A DNA stretch of 64,000 nucleotides from NCBI GenBank assembly GCA_017591395.1, contig WEDG01001318.1:38123-102122 (forward strand), read 5' to 3'. Shown here piece by piece: positions 10,095 through 63,970 of the stretch. Within the stretch, counting starts at the first letter, position 1; every line of letters starts with the position of its first letter. The position numbers were made by a program, and so were the translations under genes. The DNA is from Schistocephalus solidus (lineage: Eukaryota; Platyhelminthes; Cestoda; Diphyllobothriidea; Diphyllobothriidae). The notes beneath the pieces are model-generated. The model had not been told where the DNA came from. It did no database searches and saw only the letters and a list, made by a program, of their open reading frames with translations.

Positions 10095-11985
10095 TACCAC
10101 CTAAAACACTGATCGCATTATTTTTAACGGCTCTCAACTGAAATCCGTGGATACCTTCACCTATCTGAGCAGTAGCCTCTCGCGCAGCACCAAACTCGAT
10201 GATGAGATCACCCACAAGATCACCAAAGCCGGCCAAGCCTTTGGACGCATGCAGAACGTCGTTTGGAATCGCCACGGTCTACACCTAAGCACCAAACTCA
10301 AGATGTACAAAACTTTAAGTATGAATTTAAGACAGGCGTATACAGCAGAATTTATTGGTACAAAAAATTCATGACGGTTTATCAACTGCAACTCGTCTTT
10401 GCATAACACAGATAACGAATGGAAGTGAACCGCATTTTGTATTTACAGAAAATCAATACCCCTCCCCCAAATTATCTTTCCTCTGAAGTTTTAAGCTAAC
10501 GCGTTGAACTGATTATTCTTTACATTGTCCTCTGACACTAGCTGTTATGTATTGATTTTCTGTAAATCCAAACTGCGGTTCACTTCCATTCGTTATCTGT
10601 GTTATGCAAAGACGGGTTGCAGTTGATAAACCGTCATGAAATTTGTTGGAACCAATAAAACCTGCTGTATACGCCTGTTTTAAATGAACAAAGCTATCAT
10701 CTTGCGGACACTGCTCTATGGTGGAGATATGGACGATCCACCAAAAGCAGGTGAGGAAGTTTAAACCTTTCCGCCTCAGCTGCCTCACCAGCATACTGAA
10801 GCTGAGATGTCAAGACAGGTTCCCGGACACAGAATGGCTGGAACCAACAGGCATCTTGATCATCCACGACCAACTGAAAAAAATTGCAGCGGCCACCTTG
10901 TGCGGATGGAAGACGACCGACTACCCAAACGACTCTTCGATGGAGATTTTGCCTCGGGGTCTCGTCGACAAGGGGTCTAGTACGACGCTACAAGGGCAAT
11001 CTGAAATCTGCCTTGAAGCAATTGCAGATCAACCCGGAAAACCGGGAGTACCTCGCGCAGAACTAACCGGCCTGGAGGAGGACAGTGAAGACAGGAGCAG
11101 CAATCTATGAAATGAACCGGATCGCCACCGCCATGGATAAAAGGGCGGCACGAAATTCACCAGCACCTCGAATCAACACCACGAATGCCCAAGCCCTCAC
11201 AACATACCGCGTTGTCAACACCCTTTCCGCGTCCAAATTGGCGTGGTCGGACACCTTCGGACGCAGTGCAACAACAATCTGACAACTTAAACTTCTGCGT
11301 CAACTTCTCTAAAATCTCCTTTGGATTCCCCACGGTCATCCCTGGCACCAATTCCACCACAACCACCATCATAGCAACCTCATCCCAATACTCATCACCT
11401 GTTACCTCCATCACCGCCGTCGCAGTCACCACCACTGCCAGCGATGGCAATCTGGTCCTAAACTGTTGTCATTGTGACCAAATCTTCAACTTACGCATTG
11501 AGCTAGTCGGCCACTTGTAGATCCATCGCACAGAGCCTGTGAACCAGTGCCTGGAGCACCAATCCACAGCAGAAATCTTCACATCCACTGCCCTTACTGC
11601 CCTAACGCATTCACTAACCACATGGGCCTATTTCGGTCCGATCCGCATCCATGACAGCGGAATTCACCGCAATGTCAACAGCACTGATACCCAAAGTACA
11701 TCCTCCACTTATAACATTCTCACCGCCACTTCCACCCCCACTTCCACGAATGACAGCCCTCCAGCCACTCCCGATTTCTCCTGCCTATACTGCGCTCGCA
11801 ACTTCACCTCACGCATCAGCCTGGTCGGTCACCTGCGAAGCCATTAAACGGAGACTGGTAAACCAGTGTCTGTGGCTCCAACATACAGTCGCCACGCCTG
11901 CCTCCACGGCCCTCACTGCTCCTGCAAGTTCACACACCGCATGGGCCTCTTAAGTCACATGCACCTCCCCGATAACCTGCGGTAA
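10095..11985 (+). pseudogene. LINE reverse-transcriptase C terminus with zinc-finger tail, broken
   Basis: Before the MITE the frame reads [19 protein letters not shown] and [17 protein letters not shown] (10,147-10,316). After it the frame resumes with AIILRTLLYGG (about 10,690) and CLTSILKLRCQDRFPDTEWL (about 10,780-10,840). The finger region carries CCHCDQIFNLRIELVGHL (about 11,462-11,517; an in-frame stop follows at 11,518), a finger remnant at about 11,593-11,650, and CLYCARNFTSRISLVGHLRSH (about 11,782-11,844), then a last degenerate finger ending in DNLR and the stop at 11,983. The C-x2-C...H-x3-4-H spacing supports zinc binding, presumably nucleic-acid contact. Several frameshifts occur. 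Confidence 0.78.
10326..10683. mobile_element. 358-bp foldback MITE inserted in a LINE
   Basis: The insertion begins TTTAAGACAGGCGTATACAG and ends with its near-exact reverse complement (CCTGTTTTAA at the right edge). The inverted repeats are about 130 bp each (10,326-10,459 and 10,549-10,683) around a spacer of about 90 bp. ATGAA flanks both ends (10,321-10,325 and 10,684-10,688) and is the probable target-site duplication; a TGAA reading is equally possible. Removing it restores the order of the LINE protein (MYKT ... AIILRTLLYGG). It encodes nothing, so it would need a transposase in trans. Confidence 0.8.
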
Positions 11986-12445
11986 ACCACATCAGCGCAC
12001 ACTACCTCCACCAATACATACAAAACACCCTCACAATCATCATGTACCTGAGAATATCACGGTTTCCTACAAACCGTGGCTTGGAAGGCTGCCAATCTGA
12101 CGCTTACACAATACCAAGCCGTCGGCTTAGTATGTTGGCGTTGAGTGGCTGACCAGTGGACTGGGAGTCAGACGGTGATGGCTACTCCATATCCCCTGGT
12201 TTAGTGAATCCTGGTGTGTGCTTTATGGGGGCCAACCGGCCCGTCAGCCAATGCGCCCACTCCTACATCAGACAACTGACTGGCTCGGAAGGTAGTCTGA
12301 TTGAGGGGATCCAAGCTTCCCACTTTCTTATGCTGTTGTGTTCTAGTTTGGTGTTGAACCACAGTGCTTGGGCCTGCACCCTCTCCCATCTCCGGTCTCC
12401 TTGACTCTGTCTTGACACCGGGTTCAGGTGGGGGAGTGGAACAGA

Positions 12446-13347
12446 GAGTGCGGTAGGTGACGTGTTCACCAAGTACTCTTTCCTTGTTTATCTATTAACT
12501 GCGGCATTTTAGACAAAAATATCCTGTTTAAATTTTTATTTTCAGGTTGTCACTTAATATACAGTCGTATCATGCCTATTAAATTCTCAAGGACGTTTAT
12601 GAACCGGAAAAAAATCATATTGCTTAAGTTGCATGCCATCTTATTGATCCACCTTCGCTGTTGTGTTCTGATCGATGTTGACATAGTTCGGTACATGCCA
12701 GGGTTAGGAATAAATGAATAGACGGGCGTCATCTGAATAATGTAAGTGACGCATCACATGACTCGTTATTAAATGCGTTTCTATAATCTAAGCTATAGTA
12801 GACTGACTGAAAGTTATTCTTATTTCAGTTTTCTGGGCACTGCCATTTGATATGTATGGCACAATCTGGCAGCGGTCCATAAAACATAAAAAATTATGCA
12901 ACAATATATTGGCCTCAGTATCTAAAACTTAAAGGTAGATATCACATAGTCAATTAACTGTGTGCGCTTATCAGCCTGCAAGAAGCAAATAGAGCCCTTA
13001 TCCTTAATATTCCTGTGGTTCGGTAATTGGTAATAGCAAAGTTCGGCGTACACCAGTTTTTATGAGGTAAATACGCAAAGGTTTTTCTCGTTTAATTATC
13101 TTTGAAAGCAAAGTGGACACCAAAGTAGACGTCATTTTTGCTATTATCCGATCCGCATGGGTAACATACCAAGAAAACCTTGCATTCTACAGTGAATCTG
13201 GACTGTTGTCCTAAATATCGCACCAGAAGCATTATGTGCTATTGAGCCGCACTGCGTAAGAGTTGAAAAGGCCTAGAGCTGATAGGTTGATAGGTTCCAG
13301 CTTATGAGGAGGCATTCTGTTGAGATAAGGGTTAACTAATTGAAGTC
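12446..13347. other. Noncoding stretch, no gene seen
   Basis: AT-rich sequence downstream of the LINE 3' region. All open frames are short, carry no recognisable motif and are not preserved in the mirror copy at about 61,890-62,790. I see no repeat unit here that recurs elsewhere apart from the mirror. Confidence 0.5.
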
Positions 13348-13446
13348 AGTTCAACCGTCGTAGTCTGACGATGTCCACCATATGCTTCACGGAAGGGTGG
13401 TGAAGGGACGGTGACTTGTACGCAAATTATTTTTAGGTGATAGTAG
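13348..13446 (+). repeat. Short dispersed repeat, copy 2
   Basis: Same unit as 5,421-5,518, with TCTGACGATGTCCACC at 13,373-13,388, GGGTGGTGAAGGGACGGTGAC, and the end GTGATAGTAG. It appears to run on into ACTTTCACAGCATCTACCGC to about 13,470, a tail also present in the copy at 15,929. Its mirror is at 61,788-61,884. Confidence 0.65.
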
Positions 13447-15745
13447 ACTTTCACAGCATCTACCGCACTCTAGCTTCCCTTACCCTCCTGGACCTGGTGC
13501 CAAGATATACTCAAGTAGACCGGAGGTGGGGTTGGGCACAGATGAAGCCTCTCCCCCGGAGGGGGAGAGTGGGGGGGGGCGGAATGAGCCTGCGTGTTGA
13601 ACACCCAATGTTCGGCATTGGTTGCAGGACCGCATCTCAGAATAATAAACCCTGCTGCACCCTGATTTGGCCCCCATTTTGGCCCAGCACATATATCACG
13701 TGGTTATTTTAGGAGGCATCACTAACTGAAGTAATAGGAAGAAGATAGTTAATGCACTGTAACTAGTCTTCGACAGATGAATTTGCCTTGTCTATTTAAA
13801 AAAAATTAAAGTTTTGGGAGATGAAATCGTCGTGCGGATTCGAGAGGAGTCCAAGGCCTCATAGAATTAAAGACTCCTTTTCAAAAAAATGTTAACGCCT
13901 CTTAAAATGTCTGGAAACACAGATTATGGACCAATGAAGCGATCGCAAGTTGCTGTTTCACGTGCTTGTTTGTGAAAAGGCTTTGACAGCGTTCCACAAA
14001 GACGTTCAATTCTAAAACTATGCCTGATATGCATGAGAATACCTTTCGCAGAACTAGGGAAGAACATTTAAATTCTATTGGAAAAGACGAAACTCTACCA
14101 GTGACGGTTATCTCAGACTTTCCAGTTTTACATGCAATTACTGATGCAACTAACAGTCCTCCGTTCAAAGTTTTGCTTAGTATTCCTGGATCCTGTTGCC
14201 AGACCTACGTAGGATATGTGTTATTCTTACCATACCTGACCTACTTCTGATCTTATTTGCCTGAGATTTACCTCTCTCTCCACTAACAGATCAAGTATCC
14301 GATGCATACTACTACGGCCATACTTAGATTGCAACCGTTCAAACGTACTTACTCGAGTCCATGAATCTTTGGCACCGTCTCATCTTCATGTACTTCGGTC
14401 TACGGGCCGAGGAAAAAGCATATGACCGAAATTTAACATTGTCGTAAGGACATAATGGGAGCTTCCTCTTCCTCTCATGAGCATTTCGAATTCCTGACGC
14501 GGTTAATATTTATATTAAGATAGCTTAACTTTAACGCCGGAAGTATTGTTTCACTTAATTGATTTCACGCTTTAAATAAAGCGGTTACTATCCATCTCTA
14601 ACGGTCTCTTCTTCACTTTGGCATCCTAGGTTATCATACCAATCTTCATGACATGTTATCAATAGAAATCTATGCCTGTCTCTCAACCAAAGCAACAAAT
14701 AGCCTTTTCCTAAACGATCATAAATTAAATAAGTGCTTGAAAAACACAACTTTTGCTAACATATTTAACAGCTTTTTTTGTCCATTTTAGTAGTCTACAC
14801 CCGTTGGCATGCTAAAATAATTTGGTTCATTCTTTTCCCGAAAGTGACATGTATAATGAAAAGCGACAGGTATTTTGGCCTAGAATTGCATCCTTATCTA
14901 ATTTAATTAAGTACTAGCTAAAAAATCTTAAATTAAAAGGCATATCCTGGTTATAAAAAGTTCGAATGTGTACTTGTAGCAAGTTGTATTGAACTTCGTC
15001 TGAAGTGTTTTTGAATAAAACGAGAAAATACCTGTCGTAGAGCCCCCAAAAATGGTTTTAATAAGTTTATGTTGAGAGAAGCATTCCGTAGTCTGAACTC
15101 GATGATCAAACTGCACGTATGTAAAGGTAGGATTATTTTTGTCATGTTACGCTGAACAACAGATTGTGTCAGCATATAGACTCTCCAGTTCAACCGATTT
15201 CCTTCAAAAACGCATCCTTCCCTAAATACGTCATATTAAACCCTCATTCGAATGACTCTTTAAGTGCAATGTTTTATCAGCTAAATTTACAAGTATTATA
15301 ACTAAAACGGATTGTTATTGTATTGTATCAAACTGGGTTAAAGGGAAACACCGAATTACTGCACTCTGAGTTAGATGATGAGGGCAGACTGCGGAAAGTA
15401 ACAAATCTGGGAAGAGCCCGGTCTGTAATGAGCGCTATACTGAGCATCTCACATAACTTGATTTATCTAAATACACAGGAGTTTTAATTAACCCCATTGC
15501 CATATATGTACTAACCGGAGGAGAATTTATCGAAAATAAATGTATGCTCACAGACAAGTTGCAGAAGCCGTCTGTGGGATTTTCTGTAGATGTGAGTATT
15601 CACACTGCTTAACTATGTCCCCAGCATTTGTATGCTGATGGTTGACCAGTCAAATGTCGGTTGTTTGTGAACCAGCAGTGCCGCCTAAAAGGATCGCGTG
15701 GCAGATGCGCTGTACCACTACGGGGGCCAGATCGGGGCATGGCAG
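13447..15745. other. Noncoding stretch, no gene seen
   Basis: About 2.3 kb of mainly AT-rich DNA with a G-run near 13,572-13,580 (shortened in the mirror copy near 61,670). Frames such as 14,020-14,250 are short, lack family motifs and are disrupted in the mirror copy, so I do not call them genes. Confidence 0.5.
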
Positions 15746-15830
15746 GCGCTTCCATCAAAATTGCGCTTCCATCAAAATTGCGCTTCCATCAAAATTGCGC
15801 TTCCATCAAAATTGCGCTTCCATCAAAATT
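15746..15830 (+). repeat. Tandem repeat, 5 copies of a 17-bp unit
   Basis: The unit GCGCTTCCATCAAAATT is repeated five times without change (85 bp). The mirror array at about 59,399-59,482 also has five units, but two of them have lost three bases and one has gained bases. The open frame reading through it is a by-product of the repeat. Confidence 0.9.
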
Positions 15831-15928
15831 GCCGAACAGGTAGGGGGGCGTGGTAGAACGCGTAGGTGCAGGGTCACACCATGGCACACCATGGAGGGAA
15901 GATAGAGTGCAGTAGATGCAGTGAAAGT

Positions 15929-16022
15929 CTACTATTCCTTAAAACTAATTTGCTTACAAGTCACCGTCCCTGCACCACCCTTCCGTGAAGCATATGGCGG
16001 ACCACATCGCATACGACGGTGA
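15929..16022 (-). repeat. Short dispersed repeat, copy 3
   Basis: Minus-strand copy of the unit at 5,421-5,518: on the minus strand it shows CCATATGCTTCACGGAAGGG, GGTGCAGGGACGGTGACTTG and an A/T-rich end. It has its own short palindrome at the left edge (GACGGTGAAACCGTC, about 16,013-16,028). The mirror copy lies at 59,199-59,301. Confidence 0.65.
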
Positions 16023-16030
16023 AACCGTCG

Positions 16031-17454
16031 GTTAACCAGTCAAACTCAAAGTCTATTAAAGTCAGATTTTATGGTTCAGTTAATCCTGTTTGACATAACT
16101 GCCTAAAATATAATTTCCTTGGCAGTCTTGGGAAAGCCGGCTGGGTTGCTTTTATTAAAATGATCCTAGGTGACATTTTAAAGAAGCATTTACGATCTTT
16201 TACGCCCGGAATGACGGCAGATTCCAAGCCATCGATATAGGAGAGTAGAAAACACGTTTTGCACACGTGAGAGTTCATAATGCAGGAAGTGCAAGGTAGA
16301 ATTAACGAAAGGATTCATTTTCGCAGATTATAGAGCATAAATGCCTCGGTTATTTAACTATCAGTCATTTAAGGCAATTTTAAATTTTTGTTCAGTTACC
16401 GACTCAGGTTAGACCTTAAAGCCGTTACAAGTGTAATCTGACTGTGGCAAGTGTTCGCAGCCGCATGGACAAGCATAATGCATGCAAACGCTAATTTGGC
16501 TTAAATAAGCCTTTTTTAATCTCCGATACGCAAGTAAGCACTAACTTTTTCTGCTTATTCAAAATATATACTTCAATCCTCATTTTCTCCACCTCCAAAT
16601 TCAGCCGTTTACAAAACAAAATAGGAAATCGGCGTACTCCAATCAGAGTCTCAAAATTAGACTGCCAGTGGACATCCAGAATAGAATCGCATTGTCAGTT
16701 CTTTTTCATTGTAGGTGGCTTTTTATCACATCATCTCTGGTAAGTTTTTGAGAGCCCTGCACACAGGAAGTTCGATTATTCTAAAATGAGAATTATCATA
16801 TGTTAAGAGTTGTTAGATTCCAAGCATGTTACTAACGTACAGTAAATTCTTTCTCTATATTGTCCACAAATTCTGGAAGGAAGTTATAATTGTACGCCAT
16901 TAAAAAAACTGCAGAAAGAATGCGGACTATCCTGTCAAAATGTGCGAACTATAAAAGTTACGTTAGTCTCAACTGTATTTTTTGAGCACAAGGCTTGAGG
17001 TGTACCCAAAAGCAGTTGGTATTGAGAATACAATAAACACAAGGTTATGAAAAGTTACTCGATAGAAAAAAATCCCAGCTGAGGCATAAAATTTCTCTGT
17101 GTGGATCGAAATTAAGCCTTGACCTCGGAAGCTTTCAGGTCAGTTTAAAAGTCTACTTAGTCTCTTGGCAGCAAATGTGTTCGATAATGAAGCACAGAAA
17201 AGAAATAAGAGGTTATTGCTTCAACTCATAGACGTCTTTGTCTTATACCAATCGAGATGCTGGTTCGAAAAAAACACCAAATGATGAATCGAACAGTTAA
17301 GTTGAAAGCTGCTTAAGCGTGAGAGTTAGGGGTCAAATTAGGGTTCTTATTGGTACTTGCTTCACCTCGTGATGCCATTGGTCCTAGTATGTGAAACAGT
17401 GGAAGCATTTGACGGTACACGGTACACGCCGCTCTTTGATATACAGTTCTAATT
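16031..17454. other. Region upstream of the kelch gene, no gene seen
   Basis: About 1.4 kb before the first kelch exon. It is AT-rich, with no open frame carrying recognisable motifs. It should contain the promoter and 5' untranslated region of the kelch gene, but I cannot point to a specific site. Confidence 0.45.
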
Positions 17455-17601
17455 ATGACGAAAAGTGATCTTTCCACCTGGAAGTCAAACATGGCAAAAG
17501 ATGACACTAAAATTTTCGATGATGAGTTCCCTTTGTATAAAAGCTGCTCTGCCATGGAGGAGATGTGGCAAAAAAATGAGGCCAATGATGTCAAAATAGA
17601 G
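17455..17601 (+). CDS. Kelch-like gene exon 1 (start of BTB)
   Basis: Exactly 49 codons from ATG at 17,455, opening MTKSDLSTWKSN and ending EANDVKIE, followed by the donor GTAAGC at 17,602. The closing residues match the first BTB beta strand ('DV-I-V'). A second ATG twelve codons in (MAKDD) could also be the start; I chose the first because no stop separates them. The mirror exon is 57,624-57,768. Confidence 0.65.
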
Positions 17602-20600
17602 GTAAGCTGAGCTCATTCTCAAAGCTAATTTATGGTACGCAACTGCTTAGTTATTTGATGGTGAAAACATGAATGCCCATAGGCTTGTACTGGCTGCTCG
17701 CGTGCCACATATACGGAAAAGGATAAACCAGAAGAAAGGAGAATCTGCATTAATTTTTCAGTGGAAAGCAGTTCCAAAATGGTAAATTCATCTTGAGGGC
17801 TACGAGTGTCCATCTCCTAGTGTTGCAGAATGTCTGCTCTGTTACCTGTACACTGGAAGATTGGTGATTTCTGAAAGCAATGTCAATGGTATCCTTGTAT
17901 ATATATATATATATATTGCTGAATCGGGCCGGGAATTCTTAGAGGCCATTCATTCTGATGACTCGTGCATTAATCGGCCCATCGAATTTGATGCCGTGTA
18001 CAATAATCTCAAGGACAAGTGGAAAAGGCGGTAGCAAGTCATATTTAGATGTTCATCAACAATGACACCTATTGGCAGGACTGATACAGCAATATCGATT
18101 TTCTGACATGTTTTAAATTTTAACTGTTTATTGCACATTTTCCACTAAGTCTGACGACGACCTGGGGAACCAGCGTCGTAAAAATTTACATAATAAAGTT
18201 ACTCATTGTTTCCCCGAATAACTTCTTTTACTTCACCGATCTGGTTAAGGAACACGTATGTTCCGTTGTGCCTTGCAGCTCACTTTAGAGCCCTCGCGGG
18301 CAGTCGCATTGCAACTTCAGGTATATGTTGATAGTTGAAACCGACAGACATAGGGAGACTGAATGGTCATTTCGGCTTATTAGCCGTCATCAGGCAGTCA
18401 TACCCAATCACAGGTGTGCATATAAGTAAAGAAGAAGAGGGTCCTTTACTAGCCATAATAATGGTTTTATTCGTCTGAGCTTTTCGACCCTGGCTGGAGT
18501 CCGTCGTCAGAGATAAAAGCGGCAACAGAAACCAGCAACAGTTATCGGGTGCAAGGCCAATTAGACACCAGTGACGCCAGTCCAGAGGTGACTGTCGCAG
18601 GGCTCCGCATACCGGTGCTAACTCGATAAATCAATTGACTGAGTTCTCATCGGAGGTCCAGGCTTCAATCAATTCTCGGCTTGTCTTGCTTCTGGTGTGG
18701 GCGATTATCTTTGTGGCTGCGAAGTTAAACTCATGACCGGTTTTGATGGGTGCGGGCAGCCAGCTTGTGATAACCCTTCACGCCGGCTCACAGTCAGCTT
18801 ATGCTTGTGTATGCGCGATCCAAGCATACGCATAGTCTGTCATTTGAAGTTACGGGAACAGTATTGGTCTCAGATCATAACATCGCAATCTTTTGACGGA
18901 TTATTTTATAGCTACCTAGAGGGCTGTCTTTTCTTCGGCTTTTCAATTTGCATAAGAAATTCTCCGGTTCCGCCTCTGCTGCATGAATATAAGCTTCGGA
19001 AAGAATGAACTGCTCGAGAAGATGGCCACCTAAACAACGACATTCAGTCAATACAGACGTTGTCATCGGCTGAGGTTGCATTTTCCTGTTTTGTGCTACA
19101 GGAGGCCGCATTTTGCTTATCGGGGGTTTAATGGGGAAAAAAAGAATCGAAAGACACCGCGTCTAGGATAGACGAACTGGACGCTCGCACCGGCCTCTGG
19201 AAACCCCTCGCGCCGATGAAAACCCCACGGGCCTACGGACATACGGCGACTGCTTTTAACCTTGGAGGCCGAAAAAGAGCGGTGAGGTAGTTGTCGTGTG
19301 GTGGCGAAGACGATAAACTGTTCAATGTATCTCCTCTTGCGAGCTCTACGACCCACGGGAAAACCGGTGAGTTTTTGATAGAGTGTGATCTCTTTAACTG
19401 AGAGCACAGTGATTTGCCAATCTCATAAAAAAAGTTAAATAAAATGTTAAAAATGTCTTTCAGCTTCAGCAGGATTATTAAAAGGGAAATTGTAATATTT
19501 ACGCGTTTTGAGCATGAGTGCAAGATCTTGCAGACATACCAGGATGCCGGCTTTGTGCTTAACGTCTTTCGTCCCTCCTGAAACGCCTCACTTGAACAAA
19601 AAGACTGCTTATTTAGGGTGGATTTTTCAAAAGCTTTACTGATGCCCCTTCCAAATTCAAAATAAATTTTAAAGAAAGAATGATGAACATATTCGTTTTT
19701 GTACTTATTGATAAAAATCACGTCTTCTTCAATTTTTATCTTGAAGAATTGTTATCTTTTGGTCCCAACAATTTTATAATAGTGAAACTTTTAAAAATGT
19801 ACAATGGCCATTAAAATCTCACAGCAAATGCTCGTTTAGTAATGCCCCCTTTGTTAAGCATACGTTGTAGCCCATATTCATTGCAAAAATTCTACGAGCA
19901 CTACATGTTGTCTCTTACTCACATACATAAATGCATGATACCCTTAAATGGGAGACATATTGCTAGCAAATTGAAAACGCTAAACGCAAATGCAACATAT
20001 AGCGGGTTCAAAAATGTTCGGAATTTGAAATGTAAAACCTAAACATGCCCTTCCCTCTGGAGGATAAAATTTGACGAAGACGTGATTGGGTGGATACAAG
20101 CGAAAAATGCGAATCCCATGAAAAATTGAGAAGAAGTAGATGCGGTCGTTGGGACAATGTATTCGCCTGACGTTTCGGATTCAACTTGAACCCACCATCA
20201 GAGACATTACTATCAGTATTTACCATTATCTCTGAGGATGGGTCTATTTGGAACTGGAAAAAGTCAGGTGCAGACAAAGCTCTTATCGCAGCGATCGCAT
20301 CTACTTCATCTATCATAAAAATGTATAGATGCACTCTACCTAAGCAGTCATATGGAGTGAGGGTTTTCAGCAGGTCAAACGAACTTCTTTTGTTCAAAAT
20401 TTGGCCTCCTTATGTGTCTGTGATATCTTTGGGATTATGTTCCATGTTCCGGTTCCCTTGATAATCAGTCATAGTGCGAAAATGCACTTTTATTACCGTT
20501 TACATGAGATCGGTTACTGACCGTTCGGGAGGTTTAAAGTAATCAAAGGCAGCCAGACGTTACTGATTCTTTTATCTTCCTAGTATAAGCTGCGGTCCTG

Positions 20601-21848
20601 CCTGGTACATGAAAGAAAGGCAGCTGTGGGGCGGCTGCCGCAGCCCTGCCGGACGGATCGTCTCTTCGCGCGGTGGCGGTGGTAGGAAGGGCAGTGAGAA
20701 TTCGGTGCGGAATACTGCCGCCTGACCAATTGGAACAAAATCGGTAAGCACCTGGCGCCTCCTCCTTCTGGCGCGTGAGGCCCTACCAATGATAACTCCG
20801 CGTTGGTGCAACCAGTGGAGAAGATACGAGCACGCGGCTGTCGCTTTTCGCAAACCGGTATTTTTGTGGCTGGTGGGATGGGCCCGATGAACAAGAATTG
20901 CAAATCTTCGCGATTACGCGAAAAGCAGGAGGTGGCCCGGTCAGTGGACTCCGTCTCGATGCTCCCCAACACCAGACGAACAGGTTGCAGTCTGGCCTCC
21001 CTTCTCGTTCACAGAAACAGACTTTTTGCACTCGGTGGGAGATGGTATAGTGAAACATTCCTGTTAGTTTCACTTTGTGGCTTTGTTGTATTTAAGAAAA
21101 GCTGAATTGCCACCTTATCCAATTAGGGCAGAAATCTGCAGCCAATGATGAATAATGATTTTAAAATTGGAGTTCAGTGTGCCCTTTGTTTTGTGTAAAA
21201 TTGGTTCACCTTCCAGGTGTGACAGTTGCGCTACCAAATTTGAGGGATTTTATATAACTTTCCGCTTTGTAATCTGTTTGAAAGGTTTACCTTTTCTCCG
21301 GACGCAAAGTGCATTCCCTAGCTCATGAAATGTCAACGATATTCTGAAGTGTGCTTTCCATTCGGACAAATTACACTCAGTAGGGTTGCGGTAATACTCG
21401 ATTATCATGACGCTTAATTCGCATGTTATTTCAGTCACTGTAGAATGTTGGCGTTTGGAATTGGGCATTTAATAACAACGGAAAAGTATATTCTGCGAAA
21501 ATGTCTCACTTAAGTAGTGTGCAGTTTTCTATTGATGCCCTGTCTCATTAAATTATTGTGTGCACTTTGTTGCAAATTACGCATTTTAATGCACTTTGTT
21601 ATTTATAGTCGTTTTCTTTCAACTGAAGAAACCCTATTCGTGTTCTTTCAGAGATGAACGAACAAGTGATTTTTCCTCCACATGACGATGTGGTTAGGGT
21701 TGGAACATCGTCGGAGGAGTTTTACCCGAGTGGTAAGGAGGGCGCAACTGATGATGATTTTACAACTTGGCACTGGCTGGAAATTAGCATCACCAGCGTG
21801 AGCGATCGACCTGATCAGCTGGCTGCCGTCATCAATTTCCTGATATAG
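17455..21848 (+). CDS. BTB-kelch protein gene, left-arm copy (multi-exon)
   Basis: Kelch-like proteins use an N-terminal BTB domain for dimerisation and, in many members, cullin-3 binding; their kelch propeller binds partners or ubiquitin-ligase substrates. Recognisable exons are 17,455-17,601, 17,651-17,781, 17,821-17,888 (BTB), 19,102-19,366 and about 20,590-21,044 (kelch blades) and 21,652-21,848 (C terminus, TAG stop). Splice sites are GT...AG and phases fit: exon 3 ends in phase 1 and the first kelch exon starts in phase 1; the kelch exons join through a split arginine codon. The end of BTB and a BACK domain are not visible; their exons may lie unseen in 17,889-19,101, an intron that now holds a Penelope end and a SINE-like repeat. 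Indels in the kelch exons break this copy; the right-arm copy fills most of them in. Confidence 0.75.
17651..17781 (+). CDS. Kelch-like gene exon 2 (BTB core)
   Basis: Preceded by the acceptor CTGCTTAG and followed by the donor GTAAAT. It begins LFDGENMNAHRLVLAARVPH. The AHRLVLAARVPHIRK motif is the signature helix of BTB domains ('AHR-VLAA-SPYF'). It ends in phase 2. The intron before it is only 49 bp, a size common in flatworm genes. Confidence 0.75.
17821..17888 (+). CDS. Kelch-like gene exon 3 (BTB, YLYTGRL motif)
   Basis: Acceptor CATCTCCTAG, donor GTATCC. After completing a split codon it reads VAECLLCYLYTGRLVISESN. The Y-YTG-L-IS--NV pattern is the most conserved BTB stretch, which fixes the frame. 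The intron before it is 39 bp. The mirror exon (57,334-57,403) has one extra base that shifts the frame, so the left copy is the better reading here. Confidence 0.75.
17898..17917. repeat. TA microsatellite
   Basis: A run of about ten TA dinucleotides just after the exon 3 donor; its mirror is at about 57,306-57,325. It forms the left border of the Penelope-derived fragment. Confidence 0.85.
17925..18210 (+). mobile_element. Penelope-like element 3' fragment inside a kelch intron
   Basis: The frame EFLEAIHSDDSCINRPIEFD at about 17,936-17,995 and VYNNLKDKWKRR to the stop near 18,033 is the C-terminal end of a GIY-YIG-bearing Penelope protein; the same text occurs at 35,779-35,845 and 36,090-36,212. 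The following 3' region (TCTGACGACGACCTGG near 18,150) matches the 3' region at 36,315. The copy is 5' truncated, which is usual for reverse-transcribed insertions. Confidence 0.75.
18148..18206 (+). ncRNA. Possible hammerhead ribozyme remnant in the Penelope 3' end
   Basis: The hammerhead box CTGACGA (consensus CUGANGA) lies at 18,151-18,157, followed by a hairpin CTGG-GGAA-CCAG extended by GAC/GTC, then an A-rich box (GTAAAA here, TTGAAAA in the mirror copy at 57,044-57,049), then TTTA...TAAA pairing and GTT. Penelope-like elements are known to carry hammerhead ribozymes in their terminal repeats. The strict GAAA box is damaged in this copy and the closing stem is short, so this is a candidate only. 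Confidence 0.35.
18340..18640. repeat. SINE-like repeat in a kelch intron
   Basis: Two blocks known from elsewhere in the window: GGCTTATTAGCCGTCATCAG...CAGTCATACCC (18,376-18,415), which resembles on the opposite strand the body of the tRNA-headed repeat at 24,064, and TTTATTCGTCTGAGCTTT...CACCAGTGACGCCAGTCC (18,466-18,592), which resembles 24,424-24,556. No tRNA-like head is seen here, so it is a headless or rearranged member. Confidence 0.5.
19102..19366 (+). CDS. Kelch-like gene exon with first kelch blades (frameshifted here)
   Basis: Acceptor TTGTGCTACAG at 19,091-19,101 and donor GTGAGT at 19,367. The mirror copy (55,855-56,122) is open throughout and reads GGRILLIGGFNG, LDARTGLWKPLAPM, RAYGHTATAFN, VVVVCGGEDD and SCELYDPREN, clear kelch blades with GG and Y-W spacing. 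This left copy differs by a two-base gain in an A run near 19,140 and several losses (near 19,130, 19,275, 19,305, 19,330) that break the frame. Confidence 0.78.
20130..20312. repeat. Foldback pair of a dispersed module
   Basis: Two copies of one module face each other: AGAAGTAGATGCGGTCG...CCTGACGTTTCGGATTC...CCACCATCAGAGACAT (20,132-20,213) and its reverse form ending GCGATCGCATCTACTTCATC (20,227-20,310), about 13 bp apart. Single copies of the same module occur near 23,120-23,205, 26,375-26,400 and 27,010-27,090. The pair is consistent with a small foldback element in a kelch intron. Its mirror is at about 54,905-55,105. Confidence 0.6.
20590..21044 (+). CDS. Kelch-like gene exon with further kelch blades (frameshifted here)
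   Basis: The acceptor is TATAAG just before 20,590 (TATAG in the mirror), chosen because it is in phase with the previous exon and joins into ELYDPREN-R-WWPLPDMKERR, a continuous kelch blade. The mirror exon 54,192-54,629 shows GAAAAALPDGRLFVFGGG, RYEHAAVAFRNRIFVAGG and LSLLVHRNRLFALGG. The donor GTATAG follows here, GTATGT in the mirror. Several indels break this left copy. Confidence 0.75.
21652..21848 (+). CDS. Kelch-like gene terminal exon
   Basis: Acceptor TGTTCTTTCAG at 21,641-21,651. In phase with the preceding exon it reads EMNEQVIFPPHDDVVRVG, SSEEFYPSGKEG and TWHWLEISITSVSDRPDQLA, ending at TAG 21,846-21,848. The stretch is acidic and looks like the last strand and tail of the propeller. 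The frame is uninterrupted; the mirror exon begins near 53,580 and ends at 53,387. Confidence 0.65.
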
Positions 21849-24063
21849 GACCCCTTGTGTCCTTTGGATACAGCGTTAGCGCTTGTAGATAAAAATGAGT
21901 TAAACCCATGTGAGCAGCCATTTCAGCAGTGGGACTCAACCAAGCTCTACGGCGTGCTTTTCCGCACAGAGGTGGTAGGGAGTAAGTACACGATATAGTA
22001 CCGAATTTAATGATGATAGGTAATGCTCCACATGCGCCTATGTTATTTCCGAAATCGACTTATGCGCAAAATATTATGAAGGAAGCCAATGGCTGAAGGT
22101 GCAAAAATAAAGAGGAGAGGCGGAAAAGAACAGTAAAACACTCGAGAAGGGTGGGCTGCTACGTTTTGAAGGTTTTGCGCAAACGTTACCCGATCTGATG
22201 CTCAAACACACTGAACAGACTGAGGGATCTCTAGAAATAAACTAATAGCCAGCAGTAGTCGACTGAAGGCGCGCGCAATAACGCAACACGCGTTGAATAT
22301 TCTGGCTTCTATTTAGCAATCACCTTCTTCGTGTAAATGTACAGCATTAACAGTGATCTATTGGTGCACGAAGAGCATTATTGGAAGCATTGTACATTTT
22401 CCAGCGTAATAGCAACTTAACGACTAGAATTCAAGCAAGTCGTGCCAGGAACCCATGTGCACCTGGTTGATGGCAGTGGTGGAGAACAGACTCATGTGCT
22501 GGGTGTACATCGCTGAAAGCCCGCTCGAAGTAACTCAAACCCAGTCTACGTGGCATGCTGTGCATTTGGTTCGCGATAGACAAAACATCGTGATGCCTGA
22601 ACGGTCCGACATGGTGTCATGACGTCAGCCATTAGGCATCTTCATCGTGTCGCTTTACCAGTCAGAGCTTTTCGTCTGCGATGAAAACCTTAGCATCCAG
22701 CGATAACGAACAGCATGTCTCAAACCAACCATCTGTTCCTTTGAAATCCAATAGAATCATAGAGTCTACCCAAAGGATGAAGGCCCAAATCGGAAATATG
22801 CCCGTTCCGATGAGGACTTGATTAAACCGTAGCCATGGCAATCTCGAGATCTCCTTGTCCTTGTTGGCACTTTAATCTGGCTCCGCTACAAATCATTACG
22901 TCTAATCAGAAAACAGAGGAGATCACGCGATTTTATCTTGTCGAAAACTATAAAACCAGAGGATGCTGCTCCGGATGAAGATGCAGACGAAACGGAAGCT
23001 GACACATTTGGAAAAGTTGACACTGGTGTAAAGCATATTCACAGTTATTCTGCATGTAATTAATAACGTAAAAGTTCAAAACGTACGTCAGAGACGCACT
23101 GCTACGCGATGCTGCCGTTTGGATTATGGTTCGAGTTTGAATTCCGAAAACGTCAGATGAATAAAAGCTCTTGTTTCAGCGATTGCATCTAGCATCTTCC
23201 ATGAAAATGATGTCCACCTGAGGCGTGCGATGCGGGCTTCGAGCGCGGTTACAGAGGGAAGCTCATTAAGGAAGCAATGGCAGGCTCGGGCTCTGATGCG
23301 TGTCAGCGAGAGGACGGTCATACCAGACAGGACTCGTCTTATACGACGCAAGACCTGAGGTACGCCTGGCAGTGAGCCATGGCATGACATTGAAACGTAA
23401 GTAAATAAGTGCGTGGCACCACGCCTTCAGGTGCAGCATGCGTCAGCAGCGCGCTAGTGCGGAGAAAAACCTCACTGGTGCGGCACTGAGGTCTGGCTTT
23501 ACGGCACATCAACCCCATCCAGATGTCTGATTCGGACTAGACATTCCAGCCGCAAGCCAGCTCAGACTTGATTCACAGCCCTGACCCCAGTGCGTCACAG
23601 CCAGGCCATTGCGCGTGTCAAGGGTACAAATGCTCGCGCTGCAGCAGGTTCGTCCAATCGCGCGCGCCATGCACCGACGCCACACGTTCCGCGATCACGC
23701 TGACATCATGGACACTGACTTGGAGCATCCCGTACTCTCGGACTATTGATCAAGCTCCGGATCAGGTCAGCACACTTTCGTCTTTCTTTCATTAAAGCGC
23801 CTCGCAAGACTCTTCCGGCGGATGCGGGATGCTGGATCCTCCCTGCCAGGCGAACAATACATTACCGATCGTGAAGCAACTGTCAGATCGGCTAATATAT
23901 GCAGGTCTTCGGACAACTTCTTACAAACCAATCCTTTGTCCGTTCTTTTCGCTGACGAATGCTTACCGGTCTGTCGGTAAATGACCACTGCGTCCTGCGG
24001 CTCGCCTTTGAGGGTCAAGGCTCGCCAGCAGCCGTCCAGTTTAGCAAAGACATATCACTCAAT
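21849..24063. other. Region downstream of the kelch gene, no gene seen
   Basis: Contains the 3' flank of the kelch gene and scattered repeat pieces: a block near 22,790-22,880 that resembles on the opposite strand the repeat at 52,375-52,450, and a minus-strand CTGACGTTTTCGG module at 23,115-23,205. Open frames here are short and not conserved in the mirror. Confidence 0.45.
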
Positions 24064-24620
24064 GCCCGTAGCTCAATGGTTAGAGCTTTGGACTTTCTGA
24101 TCAAAAGTTCGCGGGTTCGGAGTCTCAGGCGATGCACTGCTCGGGCTTTTGGTGGCGACTCACGATTTATAGCTACGAGCAAGGACCGGTCAGCCTTAGT
24201 TTCCCATTCTTTTTCGGCAGCATCGATAAGCTTTCAGTCTGTGCCCTTAACTACGTAGTAACATCGCAAGCCGAACTGCAAACACCAGATAGAACTCTTT
24301 ATACTCTGCCAGCTGCGCACGAAATGGCTGAGGGCTCCTGTGCTGGAGTTGGCTTATTAATGACGAAGATCGCAATAGCCGACAAGATTAAGAAGAAGGT
24401 TGTTCGTTCACCGGAATCATGGCTTTATGCGTCTGAGCTTTCAAAACTCTAATACTGGAGTCCGTGCGTCAGGAGACAAAACAAACATAAAACGCAGTAA
24501 CAGACTTTATAGGAGGGGCAGGGGCCAACCAAACACCAGTGGTGCCAGTCCGGAGTGTGAGTACGCAGGTCCCTGTATGCAGGCGCCAGTTCTCATAAGC
24601 CGATCGATCAATGCAAATTT
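24064..24620 (+). repeat. tRNA-derived SINE-like repeat
   Basis: The head GCCCGTAGCTCAATGGTTAG...GGGTTCG (24,064-24,130) has a tRNA-like A box (TAGCTCAATGG) and B box (GGTTCGAGCCT in the mirror, one inserted G here), the internal promoter of RNA polymerase III. A non-tRNA body follows, with TTTATGCGTCTGAGCTTTC (24,421-24,440) and CACCAGTGGTGCCAGTCC (24,535-24,553), blocks shared with 18,466-18,592. The mirror copy is about 50,600-51,153. Confidence 0.7.
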
Positions 24621-25534
24621 AGGTCACACTCCGTGAGGTGTAGCAAGCGTTTGAGCATAGGTCAATAGTTCATTTACCCGAAAAATGCGTGCTTTACCGA
24701 CAAAATGCGACATTAACTTCACGCGAAGGCGAGTAAAGTAATTTTCTACAACCTTCAGGCTTTTACTGGCATTTCGCGACTTTCTGGTAGCAATACACGC
24801 ATGAGGGATGATACGACCGTCGGATACAGCAATATCTTCCAGTTGACTGGAGTGAAGGGGTTTCTGAGTGCATGCAAATTTTAGGTGGGAAGATGACATT
24901 TAAATTTGACACCACCACGCACTCAGGAACTCTCGATAAACCGCATACAAATACACAGTTTCACGCGCCTCCTCGAGAATGATCCATAACATTTTATCTT
25001 AATAAGCGTCTCTTTTAAAAGCAACATACTTATTTAGGAGACCTTTTTAAGTTTTAATTTTCCTGCAATGCAATAGGACATTATGCAGAAACATTTGAGA
25101 CAAAATCCAGTTGCGCATTGTTCTCACAAGTCAAATAGTTCTGCGGGCTGTTCCTGTGTTGCTTTGCACGCTCTGGCGGCTGATATGTTGCCACTAGTGG
25201 TATCAAACTCAACGCCAAGAGTTAACTTGACTCGAACGTCCGTCTCACTCTCTTACATTTCTTGCCGAAAAGTAATTTACATAAAACCGATTCAATGTCC
25301 AGGTTGATTAAATCATATGTTTACCGAGTCCTGAAAATCCATATTTCTCGAATGAGTATCTGTAGGCTTACTAATCTGGTACATGGTATGGATGTGACTT
25401 ATATGAGCACCTCAATCCGAGCTGGTCTCAGGTATGCTCTGCTTACAGACATATAGGTGGCCTTGCAGTAAATTTCTGGGAAGCGTCAAATATTCCCGCG
25501 GTTTACTGCCTATCATAAAACCAAACCGTGGCGT
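24621..25534. other. Noncoding stretch, no gene seen
   Basis: Repeat-like AT-rich DNA. The minus-strand frame 24,899-24,624 contains KSLKVVENYF, also readable in the mirror, but the flanking frame is not kept and no family is recognised. Confidence 0.4.
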
Positions 25535-25690
25535 TAGTATTAACCCTAACCCTACCCTTAACCTAAACCCCGCAGTCAATGGTTGAACCAAAACAGTAAC
25601 ACTAAATAGACACTCTGAACCTAACGATAACTGTGACTGTAACCGGACCCTAAATCTAAACTCACACCTTTAACCCGCAAAACCTAAGTC
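25535..25690. repeat. Degenerate telomere-like tract
   Basis: TTAACCCTAACCCTACCC at 25,540-25,557 followed by CTTAACCTAAACCCC and further degenerate AACC/CTAA words to about 25,690. This resembles decayed (TTAGGG)n, the usual flatworm telomere repeat, lying inside the arm. The mirror tract at about 49,590-49,740 reads GGGTAGGGTTAGGGTTAA. Confidence 0.7.
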
Positions 25691-26440
25691 TCTCAGTATG
25701 GCTGCAAAGCCGCGTAAATTGGCGGCGGCTACATTGCTTCCCGATTATGCGGCCTTAAAAGTTCTCCTTACCACCGGCTTCACCTACACATTTTAGTTTT
25801 GGAAATAATGGATGTTCTGCTGGTAAATCCATCCTTCTTATTCATCCAGGAATAGACGTACAGAGGTTTTCTAACCCACCCGCACGGATCAGATTTCGCC
25901 AGCCGTCAGCTTATTAGATTTGGGGAATGCCTCATAAAGATGTGACTCAATGTGCAAAATAGTGATTACACGTGAATAGGGCATGACAACGACAGAACAA
26001 GGGAGCACCATTAGCCGACATGAACAAGGGAGACAACGACAGATTAGGCCCTCCAGCAGAAGTAGATGCGTTCGAACAAGAACTTTATGCCTGATATTTC
26101 CAATTTTCTTCTCGGTTTCAGTCAGACCCGCAGAAACATCAAACGAGTAACCTTCCACGTGTCCAGTGATGGTACATCTCTGAAATGCGCACTACACTTC
26201 GTCTGTTTTCGGTTTGACCTAAACGCTCCCATATGACAGATGTCCGGGGTACGGTATCCAGGACCAGGCTCTTCCTCATTCACCAATGGTCGCTCGGTGG
26301 TGGTTCTTGTATAGTCCATCTTAAACGATCTTAAAGACGGTAGCAATTAGCGAACCGCAACCCGCAACCGTCCTCGTTGATGGGTTCGGGAGAGAATCCG
26401 AAACGCTGCGGCCAATGAACAATCATGTTCCAATGATCAA
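25691..26440. other. Repeat-rich noncoding stretch
   Basis: Holds diverged copies of the AGTAGATGCG / TTTC-GTTTCAG module near 26,060-26,125 and a minus-strand copy near 26,375-26,400. No coding frame is convincing. Confidence 0.4.
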
Positions 26441-26487
26441 TTTCTTCTTCTTCTTCTTCTTTCTTCTTCTTCTTCTTTCCTTTCTTC
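26441..26487. repeat. TTC microsatellite
   Basis: An interrupted (TTC)n run of about 47 bp. In the mirror (48,820-48,870) the tract is an uninterrupted (GAA)n run of about the same length, so the interruptions differ between the arms. Confidence 0.9.
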
Positions 26488-26639
26488 TGACTGGCCCCAA
26501 TTTTTCGGAAAGAAAAAGGCTAGCAGCAATGATCACTTTGTGGTTTATTTTCTGGCAAGCAGCCGCTGCTGGCATAACCGCAGTCTGAAATCGGAGTCAT
26601 TTACTCACCGAATGTTCTAGGCAAGTTGTTCGCTAAATC

Positions 26640-27100
26640 CGAACGCATATTCCGCTGCTATTATCCATGCGCAATATTCCACCGAGCAAGGTTCAAGTAA
26701 TTTCTTTCCTTGGATGCAGGACAGAATGTGGGCCTCCTGCCGCAGCTCTCGAGCTTCAGTCACTTCCCGCAGGTGGTCCACACACAGCGCTGCCGGCTTA
26801 TTCGACATCTAGCCTGTCTCCGACGGCTGAGGCCCTGCGGCGCCCGCAAAGGTCGCATTATTTATACTACCCTTTCGCAATCCATCGTGGATCCGGGCAA
26901 ACAGTAGCACGCGTTGGCATAATATGGGCAAAGAGTGTCGACCCAGGCGAATTGCAAACGGGAATTTGCTTGATGTTAGTGACCCGTGAATGCAATGAAA
27001 GCAGTTGAGGAAGAGTAGAGGCAGCGACCGTTCTGGAACAAGATTTCTATTTGCTCTGACGTTTCGGTCTATCTTCGAACCCAGCATCGAGCATTGCAGC
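26640..27100. other. Conserved noncoding repeat block
   Basis: GC-richer block around GGACAGAATGTGGGCCTCCT (26,719) and GGCTGAGGCCCTGCGGCG (26,825), followed by a copy of the GTAGAGGC...CTGACGTTTCGG module at 27,015-27,090. Frames through it are short and differ between the arms. I consider it a dispersed repeat rather than a gene, without a family name. Confidence 0.35.
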
Positions 27101-27259
27101 ACTGACAAGGGTAACTGGATCACAGCGTACATTTGCCACGCCACACAACTTGCCTGTTGTAAGTAAGGTAGCAACCTCCGAATTACTTCTCATCAACCTT
27201 TATTTGGTGCGATTACATCTTGATCGCGCGCCGAGTCGCTTAATCACCATGGTTTCTAA

Positions 27260-28009: not shown

Positions 28010-28196
28010 TCTTACGCAACCGTGTGTATGTGCGCGGCTGGTTGCTTATCAAAGCCTCAGAACTTACGGTAGTATACGGTTTCGGCTCAGGATGGCTTGG
28101 AAGATGGTTATTAATACCGCCAGGGCAGCTGGCTGTGGATTGTCAGGCTAAAGGCAGGCGATCTTTAAATGTTCGTCGCCCAATTCTTTGAGAGAG

Positions 28197-42570: not shown

Positions 42571-42574
42571 CTTC

Positions 42575-53386: not shown

Positions 53387-56300
53387 CTATATCAGAATTG
53401 GATGACGGCAGCCAACATAATTAGATCGATGTTCGCTGGTGATGCTTGTTCCAGCCAGTGCCAAGTTGTAAAATCATCATCAGTTGCGCCCTCCTTTTTC
53501 CCTTTTTCAGGTAAAAACTCCTCGACGATGTTCCAACCTAACCACATCGTCATGTGGAGGAAAAATAAAAAAAAACATTTCGTTCATCTCTGAAAGAACA
53601 CGAATAGGGTTTCTTCAGTTGAAAAGGAAACGACTATAAATAACAAAGTGCATTAAAATGCGTAATTTGCAACAAGAATTGCACACAATAATTTAATGAG
53701 ACCACGGAACATCAATAAGAAAACTGCACACTACTTAAGTAGACATTTTCGCAGAATATACTTTTTTTCCGTTGTTATTAAATACTAATTCCAAACGCCA
53801 ACATTCTACAGTGACTGAAATAACATGCGATTAAGCGTCATGATAATCAGTATTGCAACCCTACTGAGGTAATTTGTCCGAATGGAAAGCACACTTCAGA
53901 ATATCGTTGACATTTCATGAGCTAGGGAATGCACTTTACGTCGGAGAAAGGTAAACCTTTCAAACAGATTACAAGCGGAAAGTTATATAAATCCCTCCAA
54001 ATTTGGTAGCGTTTTTTAACTGTCACACCTGGGAAGGTGAACCAATTTTCAAAACAAGGGCACACTGAACTCAATTTAAAAAATCATTATTCATCATTGG
54101 CTGCAGATTTCTTTCCTAATTGAATAAGGTAGCAATTCAGTTTTCTTAAATAACAAGCTACAAGTGAAACTAACAGGAATGTTACACATACCATCTCCAC
54201 CGAGTGCAAAAAGTCTGTTTCTGTGAACGAGAAGGGAGAGGCCCGAACGCAGCCTGTTCATCTGGTGTTGGGGGAGCATCAGACGAGTCCACTGACCAGA
54301 CACCTCCTGCTTTTCGTATCCCGGAGGGCAGAAGATTTGCAATTCTTGTTTCTCGGGCCATCCACCAGCCACAAAAATACGGTTGCGAAAAGCGACAGCC
54401 GCGTGCTCGTATCTTCTCCACTGGTTGCACCAGGTCATTGGTAGGGCCTCACGCCAGAAGGAGGAGGCGCCAGGTGCCCCGCGATTTGTTCCAATTGGTC
54501 AGGCGGCAGTATTCCACCGAATTCTCACTGCCCTTCCTACCACCGCCAAAAACGAAGAGACGTCCGTCCGGCAGGGCTGCGGCAGCCGCCCCACAGCGCC
54601 TTTCTTTCATGTCAGGCAGGGGCCACCAGCTATACTAGGGAAGATAAAAAGGAATCAGTAACGTCTGGCTGCCTTTGATTACTTTAAACCTCCCGAACAG
54701 TCAGTAACCGATCTCATGTAACGGTAATAAAAGTGCATTTCGCACTATGACTGATTATCAAAGGGGAACCGGAACATGGAACATAATCCCAAGATATCAC
54801 AGACACATAAGGAGGCCAAATTTTGAACAAAAGTTCGTTTGACCTGCTGAAAACCTCACTCCATAAAAATGACTGCTTAGGTAGAGTGCATTTTTTCTAT
54901 ACATTTTTATGATAGATGAAGTAGATGCGATCGCTGGGATAAGAGCTTTGTCTGCCTGACTTTTTGGATTCCAAATAGAACCCATCCTCAGAGATAATAG
55001 TAAATACTGATAATGTCTCTGATGGTGGGTTCAAGTTGAAATCCGAAACGTCAGGCGAATAAAGCTATTGTCCCAGCGACCGCATCTACTTCTTCTCAAT
55101 TTTTTCATGGGATTCGCATTTTCGCTTGTATCAGCAATCACGTCTTCGTCAAATTTTATCCTCAGAGGAAGGGCATGTTTAGGTTTTACATTTTTTTCAA
55201 ATTCCCGAACATTTTTGAACCCGCTATATCATTGCATTTGCGTTTAGCGTTTTCAATTTGCTAGCAATATGTCTCCCATTTAAGGAGTATCATGCATTTA
55301 TGTATGTGAGTAAGAAGACAACATGTAGTGCTCGTAGAATTTTGCAATGAATATGGGCTACAACGTATACTTAACAAGGGGCATTACTAAACGAGCATTT
55401 GCTATGAGATTTTAATGGCCATTGTACATTTTTAAAAGTTTTCACTATTATAAAATTGTTGGGACCAAAAGATAACAATTCTTCAAGATAAAAAATTGAA
55501 GAAGACGTGATTTTTTATCCAATAAGTACAAAAACGAATATGTTCATCATTCTTTCTTTAAAATTTATTTGAATTTGGAAGGGCATCGTAAAGCTTTTGA
55601 AAAATCCACCCTAAATAAGCAGTCTTTTTGTTCAAGTGAGGCGTTTCAGGAGGACGAAAAGACGTTAGCTGCAAAGCCGGCATCCTGGTATGTCTGCAAG
55701 ATCTTGCACTCATGCTCAAAACGCGTAAATATTACAATTTCCCTTTAATAATCCTGCTGAAGCTGAAAGACATTTTAACATTTTATTTAACTTTTTATGA
55801 GATTGGCAAATCACTGTGCTCTCAGTTAAGAGATCACACTCTATCAAAACTCACCGGTTTTCCCGTGGGTCGTAGAGCTCGCAAGAGGAGAGTACATTGA
55901 ACAGTTTATCGTCTTCGCCACCACACACGACAACTACCTCACCGCTCTCTTTTCGGCCTCCAAGGTTAAAAGCAGTCGCCGTATGTCCGTAGGCCCGTGG
56001 GGTTTTCATCGGCGCGAGGGGTTTCCAGAGGCCGGTGCGAGCGTCCAGTTCGTCTATCCTAGACGCGGTGTCTTTCGATTCTTTTTCCCCATTAAACCCC
56101 CCGATAAGCAAAATGCGGCCTCCTGTAGCACAAAAAACAGGAAAATGCAACCTCAGCCGATGACAACGTCTGTATTGACTGAATGTCGTTGTTTAGGTGG
56201 CCATCTTCTCGAGCAGTTCATTCTTTCCGAAGCTTATATTCATGCAGCAGAGGCGGAACCGGAGAATTTCTTATGCAAATTGAAAAGCCGAAGAAAAAGA

Positions 56301-59301: not shown

Positions 59302-59398
59302 ACTTTCACTGCATCTACTGCACTCTATCTTCCCTCCATGGTGTGCCATGGTGTGACCCTGCACCTACGCGTTCTACCACGCCCCCTACCTGTTCGGC

Positions 59399-59482
59399 AA
59401 TTTTGATGGAAGCGCACTTTGATGGAAGCGCAATTTTTGATGGAAGCGCACTTTGATGGAAGCGCAATTTTGATGGAAGCGC
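59399..59482 (-). repeat. Tandem repeat, mirror array with indels
   Basis: Five units of the 17-bp repeat of 15,746-15,830, but with GCGCACTTTGATGG (three bases lost) twice and GCGCAATTTTTGATGG (bases gained) once. Confidence 0.88.
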
Positions 59483-61884: not shown

Positions 61885-63279
61885 ACTGACTCTCAATTAG
61901 TTAACTTTATCCTCGACAGAATGCCTCCCTCATAAGCTGAACCTATCAACCTATCAGCTCTAGGCCTTTTCTCAACTCTACGCAGTGCGGCCTAATGGAC
62001 ACATAATGCACGTTTGGTGCGATATTTGTGGACAACAGTCCAGATTCACTGTAGAATGCAAGGTTTTCTTGGTATGTTACCTCATGCGGATCGGATAATA
62101 GCAAAAATGACGTCCACTTTGGTGTCCACTTTGGCTTTCAAAGATAATTCAAACGAGAAAAACTCTTTGCGCATTTACTCTCATAAAAACTGGTGTACGC
62201 CGAACTTGCTATTACCAATTACCGAACCACAGGAATGCTGCGATAAGGGCTCTATTTGCGTATCTTTGCAGGCTGATAAGCACGTTAATTGACTATGTGA
62301 TATCTACCTTAAGTTTTAGATACTGAGGCCAATATATATGTTGTGACATATCTTTTATGTTTTATGGACCGCTGCCAGTAGATTGTGCCATACATTAACA
62401 AAATGGCAGCGCCCAGAAAAACTGAAATAAGAATAACTTTCAGTCAGTCTACTATAGCTAGATTATAGAAACGCATTTAATAACGAGTCATGTGGATGCG
62501 TCACTACATTATTCCAGATGACGCCCGTCTATTCATTTGTTCCTAACCCTGCGCATGTACTCGAACTATGTCAACATCGATCAGAACACAACAGCGAAGG
62601 TGGATCAATAAGATGGCATGCAACTTGCTAAGCATGGATCCGGTTCATAAACGTCCTTGAGAATTTAATAGGCATGATACGGTATATTAATGACAACCTG
62701 AAAATAAAAATTTAAACAGGATATTTTTGTCTAAAATGCCGCAGTTAATAGATACAAACAAGGAAAGAGTACTTTCTGGTGAACACGTCACCTACGCGAC
62801 TTCTGACTCCACTCCCCACCTGAACCCGGTGTCACAAGACAGAGTCAAGGAGACCGGAGATGGGAGAGGGTGCAGGCCCAAGCACCGTGGTTCAACACCA
62901 AACCAGGAACACAACAGCATAAGAAAGTGGGAAGCTTTGATCCTCAATCAGACTACCTTCCGAGCCAGTCAGTTGTCTCGATGTAGGAGTGGGCGCGATT
63001 GGCTGACGGAAGCCGGTTGGCCCCCATGTTAGCACACACCATTGTGATTCACTCAAACCAGGGATATGGAGTAGCCATCACCGTCTCGACTCCGCAGTCC
63101 ACTGGTCAGCCACTCAACGCCAACATACTCAAGCCGACGGTCTTCTGGTATTGTGTCAGCGTCAGGATTGGCAGCTCTCCAAGCCACGGTTTGTGGTGGA
63201 AACCGTGATATTCCCGGGTACATGATGATTGTGAGGGTGTTTTGTATGTATTGGTGGAGGTAGTGTGCGCTGATGTGGT
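61885..63279. other. Mirror of 11,986-13,347, LINE 3' region and noncoding DNA
   Basis: The part 62,780-63,279 is the LINE 3' region (GACAACTGACTGG-type block, here CAGTTGTCTCGATGTAGGAG near 62,971). The rest shows no gene. Confidence 0.5.
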
Positions 63280-63970
63280 TTACCGCAGGTTATCGAGGTG
63301 CATGTGACTTTGAGGCCCATGCGGTGTGTGAACTTGCAGGAGCAGGAGGGCCGTGGAGGCAGGCGTGGCGACTGTATGTTGGAGCCACAGACACCGGTTT
63401 ACCAGTCTCCGTTTAATGGCTTCGCAGGTGACCGACCAGGCTGATGCGCGGGAGGTGAAGTTGGTGAGCGCAGGCAGGAGAAATCGGGAGTGGTTGAGGG
63501 CTGTCATTCGTGGAAGCGGAGGTGGAAGTGGCGGTGAGAATGTTATAAGTGAGTGATGTACTTTGGGTATCAGTGCTGTTGACATTGCGGTGAATTCCGC
63601 TGTCATTGATGCGGATCGGACCGAATAGGCCCATGTGGTTAGTGAATGCGTTAGGGCAGTAAGGGCAGTGGATGTGAAGATTTCTGCTGTGGATTGGTGC
63701 TCCAGGCACTGGTTCACAGGCTCTGTGCGATGGATCTACAAGTGGCCGACTAGCTCAATGCGTAAGTTGAAGATTTGGTCACAATGACAACAGTTTAGAT
63801 AGATTGCCATCGCTGGCAGTGGTAGGACTGCGACGGCGGTGATGGAGGTAACAGGTGATGAGTAGATGAGGTTGCTATGATGGTGAAGGTGGTGGAATTG
63901 GTGCCAGGGATGACCGTGGGGAATCCAAAGGAGATTTTAGAGAAGTTGACGCAGAAGTTTAAGTTGTCAG
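63280..63970 (-). pseudogene. LINE zinc-finger tail, right-arm mirror
   Basis: Minus-strand mirror of 11,279-11,985. The frame 63,717-63,280 is longer than its left counterpart and ends DNLR at the same stop. Fingers such as ...FTSRISLVGHLRSH (63,413 end) are readable in the other frames. The copy breaks off at 63,970 where adapter-like sequence starts. Confidence 0.8.

Follow-up and report, generated by a model that had tools for sequence, protein, structure and literature searches.

At an inverted repeat an assembly graph can be mis-joined, whereupon the assembly turns around a single-copy spacer and unique sequence is repeated on the return. Two arms around a spacer are also the arrangement of natural inverted duplications and palindromes, for example those described for Y chromosomes, and palindromes arise as well after whole-genome amplification, according to PMC6218980. 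Fold-back artefacts of long reads run along the forward strand and then along its reverse complement, and they disturb assemblies (PMC12870357, PMC6218980). As an ONT artefact, fold-back reads whose two segments lie about 2 kb apart are documented in PMC12870357, which estimates the share of fold-back reads among ONT genomic reads at about 0.55-0.6% and gives turn points within 200 bp as the fold-back default of Breakinator. Our literature search for a Ligula/Schistocephalus nanopore genome found no paper.

The window analysed here, a stretch of 64,000 bases of Schistocephalus solidus DNA, spans positions 38,123-102,122 of contig C1102 (102,122 bp), which ends with base 64,000 of the window. 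Self-BLASTN and a chained alignment over the 64-kb window confirmed what a sequence-only reading had claimed, namely that a left arm (24.6 kb) returns in reverse complement as a right arm (25.8 kb), with a spacer between them (Table 1). The chained alignment of the arms holds 22,835 matches, 601 mismatches and numerous small indels. The mirrored blocks are collinear along the whole arms, and this preserved order indicates a mirror far beyond chance; chance repeats are rejected as its source on the self-BLASTN result. Within the contig, the second segment maps back onto the first in the opposite orientation, as in a fold-back. The mirror stops where the contig stops, at a read end. A search of the assembly (603.7 Mb, 8,019 contigs) with positions 17,000-20,000 returned 63 matches; among the 40 of 8,096 first-look candidates that were scored, the unique parts were covered only by the two arms in C1102, and the remaining matches were repeat.

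Compared with the described systems, the locus resembles a mis-join at an inverted repeat in its turn, its single-copy spacer and its repeated unique sequence, and its inner 5 kb is a putative inverted repeat. It differs from fold-back artefacts in being a contig consensus, not a single read, in its inner clean substitutions and large indels, and in having no adapter in the middle. Between the arms lie 2,241 bp that may or may not continue the locus, against the 200 bp of the Breakinator default. Unlike natural palindromes, the arms have diverged unevenly, and the evidence for them is the assembled contig.

Table 1. Features of the mirrored locus (positions in the window)
Feature	Position	Strand	Basis or remark
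Left arm	11,279-35,890	+	self-BLASTN, chained alignment
Right arm, the left arm in reverse complement	38,132-63,971	-	self-BLASTN, chained alignment
Self-BLASTN block	11,278-25,952 vs 63,971-49,317		89.8% identity
Self-BLASTN block	26,790-30,945 vs 48,481-44,402		83.4% identity
Self-BLASTN block	30,943-34,258 vs 43,473-40,173		96.5% identity
Self-BLASTN block	34,254-35,890 vs 39,767-38,132		98.0% identity
Kelch exon, open in right arm	55,854-56,192	-	left counterpart 19,034-19,367
Inner left arm	30,943-35,890	+	mostly clean substitutions vs partner
Inner right arm	38,132-43,473	-	partner of 30,943-35,890
410-bp piece, right arm only	39,766-40,175	-	chained alignment
931-bp piece, right arm only	43,474-44,404	-	chained alignment; 241 bp of 931 are repeat X
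Repeat X, clean full copy, right arm	44,164-44,801	+	
Repeat X, noisy and truncated copy, left arm	30,556-30,945	-	
Repeat X pair, left arm	33,207-33,841 and 30,556-30,945		
Repeat X pair, right arm	40,589-41,226 and 44,164-44,801		
Presumed Penelope-like RT, left arm	34,682-35,147	+	vs P0121; frame shift near 35,070-35,097
Presumed Penelope-like RT, right arm	38,803-39,339	-	vs P0121; 179 aa without frame shift, two in-frame stops
Spacer, one copy	35,891-38,131	+	2,241 bp; part of presumed Penelope-like element

The arms carry genes and repeats of several kinds. Of two Kelch exons, Pfam recognised both in the right arm (about 56.0-56.1 kb and 54.4 kb) and neither in the left. The left counterpart of the exon that is open in the right arm differs from it by six indel events and no substitution. 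The earlier claim that each arm has private indels in its exons is supported. TTC/GAA arrays and 17-bp arrays are present in both arms; the 17-bp minisatellite is perfect at 15,746-15,832 in the left arm and degraded at 59,397-59,482 in the right. Positions 17,927-18,234 hold a dispersed repeat, about 305 bp long, of which many copies lie elsewhere. Searches for Rfam families and tRNA genes gave no match, and a 102-aa segment from the right arm, searched as protein, yielded one candidate, which was not accepted. Outside the mirror, dense LINE copies in both orientations occupy window positions 1-11,278 and C1102 positions 9,466-48,174; they are related to proteins of Schistocephalus and Spirometra. 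The nearest proteins to a retroelement ORF of this left flank come from Schistocephalus, Spirometra and Sparganum (among the best 120 of 1,628 matches), which points to a diphyllobothriid tapeworm as the most likely source. A short-period tandem array lies at C1102 24,657-24,980, outside the window.

The identity of the arms is very uneven. Near the centre the differences are clean substitutions and farther out they become indel noise, a gradient absent from the earlier reading. A substitution was counted as clean only at positions with eight matched columns on each side. By this count clean substitutions occupy 41 of 3,215 positions (1.28%) in the inner part (30,943-35,886) and 17 of 3,854 (0.44%) at 14,000-20,000, which was picked for comparison as the least noisy outer stretch (Fisher p 1.6e-4); over 11,279-22,000 the count is 29 of 5,568 (0.52%). 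Clean substitutions are also frequent in the noisy stretch 22,000-30,943 (29/1,062, 2.7%), and we read these as noise that is inseparable from divergence; if they were divergence, they would speak against an assembly that turned around. The two kinds of difference are distinct in their makeup: 34,256-35,893 has 24 mismatches, 19 of them isolated, beside 10 small gap events, and 22,000-30,943 has 406 mismatches, 29 of them isolated, beside 798 small gap events. At 11-20 kb the arms differ chiefly by small indels, and this outer stretch is compatible with read errors alone between two segments of one molecule. In the inner 5 kb the differences go beyond read errors, with clean isolated substitutions on both arms and indels of 410 and 931 bp, and there the earlier description of the arms as two noisy readings of one locus fails. 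Clean divergence is confined to this inner part.

At the tested spots the noise changes sides along the mirror. Over the outer 0.95 kb, comparison with 18 LINE copies of this genome shows the right arm to be the noisier in all 18 cases, extra-base and missing-base events both being more frequent there (pooled, 17.9 extra-base and 23.2 missing-base events per kb on the right, 7.4 and 11.2 on the left). These figures come from pairwise alignments; a MAFFT alignment, the columns of which are apparently misregistered, gave the same direction. Between 19 and 31 kb the left arm is the noisier one at the three places for which there was a reference, two Kelch exons and repeat X. One noisy arm paired with one clean arm is ruled out because different arms are worse at different tested places, and neither arm is simply "the read". 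The supposed noisy right arm shows 82 extra versus 51 missing base events at 11.3-14.3 kb and the supposed noisy left arm 572 versus 368 at 20.3-32.3 kb; the insertion bias of the noisy arm is thus the same at both stretches. Judged against six repeat copies, both arms have small faults at 17.9-18.2 kb, indicating that the alternation is not clean everywhere. Noise that swaps sides would be expected if the reads of one locus were split between two copies in the contig.

As judged from sequence, the inner 5-kb arms look like two genuinely different copies, alleles or paralogues. Six substitutions between the inner left and inner right copies of repeat X, polarised by eye with a third copy, are private to the left arm in three cases and to the right arm in three. 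In the reverse transcriptase (RT), a comparison by eye assigns five amino-acid changes to the right arm alone, the Y of YxDD among them. The left arm has one or two changes of its own and has also lost two single bases. The right copy of repeat X at 44,164-44,801 is clean against two other copies. Repeat X itself forms an inverted pair within each arm, the members about 2.3-3 kb apart. No target-site duplication was seen at the edges of the 410-bp piece.

The RT elements of the spacer and the inner arms are, we presume, Penelope-like. Their comparison with the cestode RT-like protein P0121 (Pfam RVT_1) gave E values of 9e-61 and 4e-71; RVT_1 scored 20.1 bits on 38,875-39,342, below the Pfam cut-off of 29.6. 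The spacer opens with a stretch near 35,893-36,214 that we take to be GIY-YIG-like from a motif read by eye, and it continues into an RT (37,469-38,078) that matches related cestode proteins and ends near 38,078-38,131. These pieces belong to another presumed Penelope-like copy, and their order suggests a head-to-tail array. Across the left spacer edge, 34,682-38,131 holds two different Penelope-like copies head to tail, and the edge lies just after the first. A short stretch, ATCGAAGG, is common to both spacer edges; since it belongs to the mirror, it is indistinguishable from microhomology.

At the outer end, positions 63,971-63,994 on the minus strand match 24 of 24 bases of what we take to be the ONT ligation adapter, as the sequence-only reading had noticed. 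The match begins where the mirror ends and stops 6 bp before the contig end. No other strong adapter match occurs in the window, and the spacer has none; a strand follow-on read, composed of template, adapter and complement, is ruled out by the missing adapter between the strands. We surveyed the terminal 300 bp on both sides of every 400th contig, 20 other contigs in all; one of the 40 ends was all N. Among the 39 readable ends, one carried a near-complete adapter within 4 bp of the end, and three more had partial matches near the end with scores, uncorrected for chance, of 11-12 of 28; a further score of 10 lay away from the contig end. The near-complete case is contig C1000, whose last 300 bases end in the adapter. 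That another contig end carries one indicates that the adapter marks an untrimmed read end only and is weak evidence. Its use as the decisive argument for a fold-back over a true duplication is therefore rejected, and an adapter at a contig end alone does not prove a fold-back read.

Taking all artefact readings together, the mirror is very probably a product of the assembly, in line with the judgement of the earlier reading, which also stands as to the mirror, the adapter and the private exon indels; it does not stand for one-locus readings in the inner 5 kb or for the adapter as decider. On the pattern of differences we consider it probable, with room for doubt, that the assembly turned around and wrote one locus twice, with two different inner copies. 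The assembler would have walked one tapeworm locus up to the presumed Penelope-like element, turned there and retraced the locus on its other strand as far as the untrimmed nanopore adapter of the last read. The reads of the locus would have been divided between the two contig copies, leaving each copy poorly corrected where the other is good. The turn may stem from a fold-back read that linked two alleles, or from a real inverted repeat, small in size, at which the assembler went wrong; by analogy with the documented fold-back reads whose segments lie about 2 kb apart, such a read may have made it. The turn-around gives no account of the 931-bp difference lying in L (left arm).

The sequence-only reading had instead seen a single molecule: one read of about 53 kb, from a hairpin or fold-back, whose arms both report the same molecule and allele. 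The mirror in full order, the read end at its outer edge, the private indels of each arm and the frequency of fold-back reads among ONT genomic reads, with one example separated by about 2 kb in the account of PMC12870357, all fit such a read. We nevertheless consider it unlikely, given the significant excess of clean substitutions in the inner part, the few small gap events beside the mismatches at 34,256-35,893, inner changes private to both arms, the two large indels and the spacer free of adapter. Less likely again is a true inverted duplication, about 25 kb long and centred on the presumed Penelope-like element, that was correctly assembled and poorly corrected. The inner clean divergence and the two large indels do resemble those of two real copies, and multi-mapping reads drawn to inverted repeats could spoil correction. 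A single duplication event would leave similar divergence along the arms, whereas the clean divergence here is 1.28% inside and 0.44% at 14-20 kb, although gene conversion could blur this test; the mirror also ends exactly at the contig end, and the noise changes sides. A genuine inverted repeat around the element, with arms of 5 kb or more and perhaps of 25 kb, about 1.3% diverged and with two large indels, is a tentative possibility that we hold to be rather doubtful. Such a repeat, if present, could in turn give rise to fold-back copies, either in the cell or during library preparation.

The type of difference along the arms, clean substitutions as against indel noise, separates readings of one locus from separate copies. 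The mirror is most likely not a real feature of the genome. Left in place, it would cause the Kelch gene and its neighbours to be counted twice and would invent a 52-kb palindrome in the genome of the parasite.
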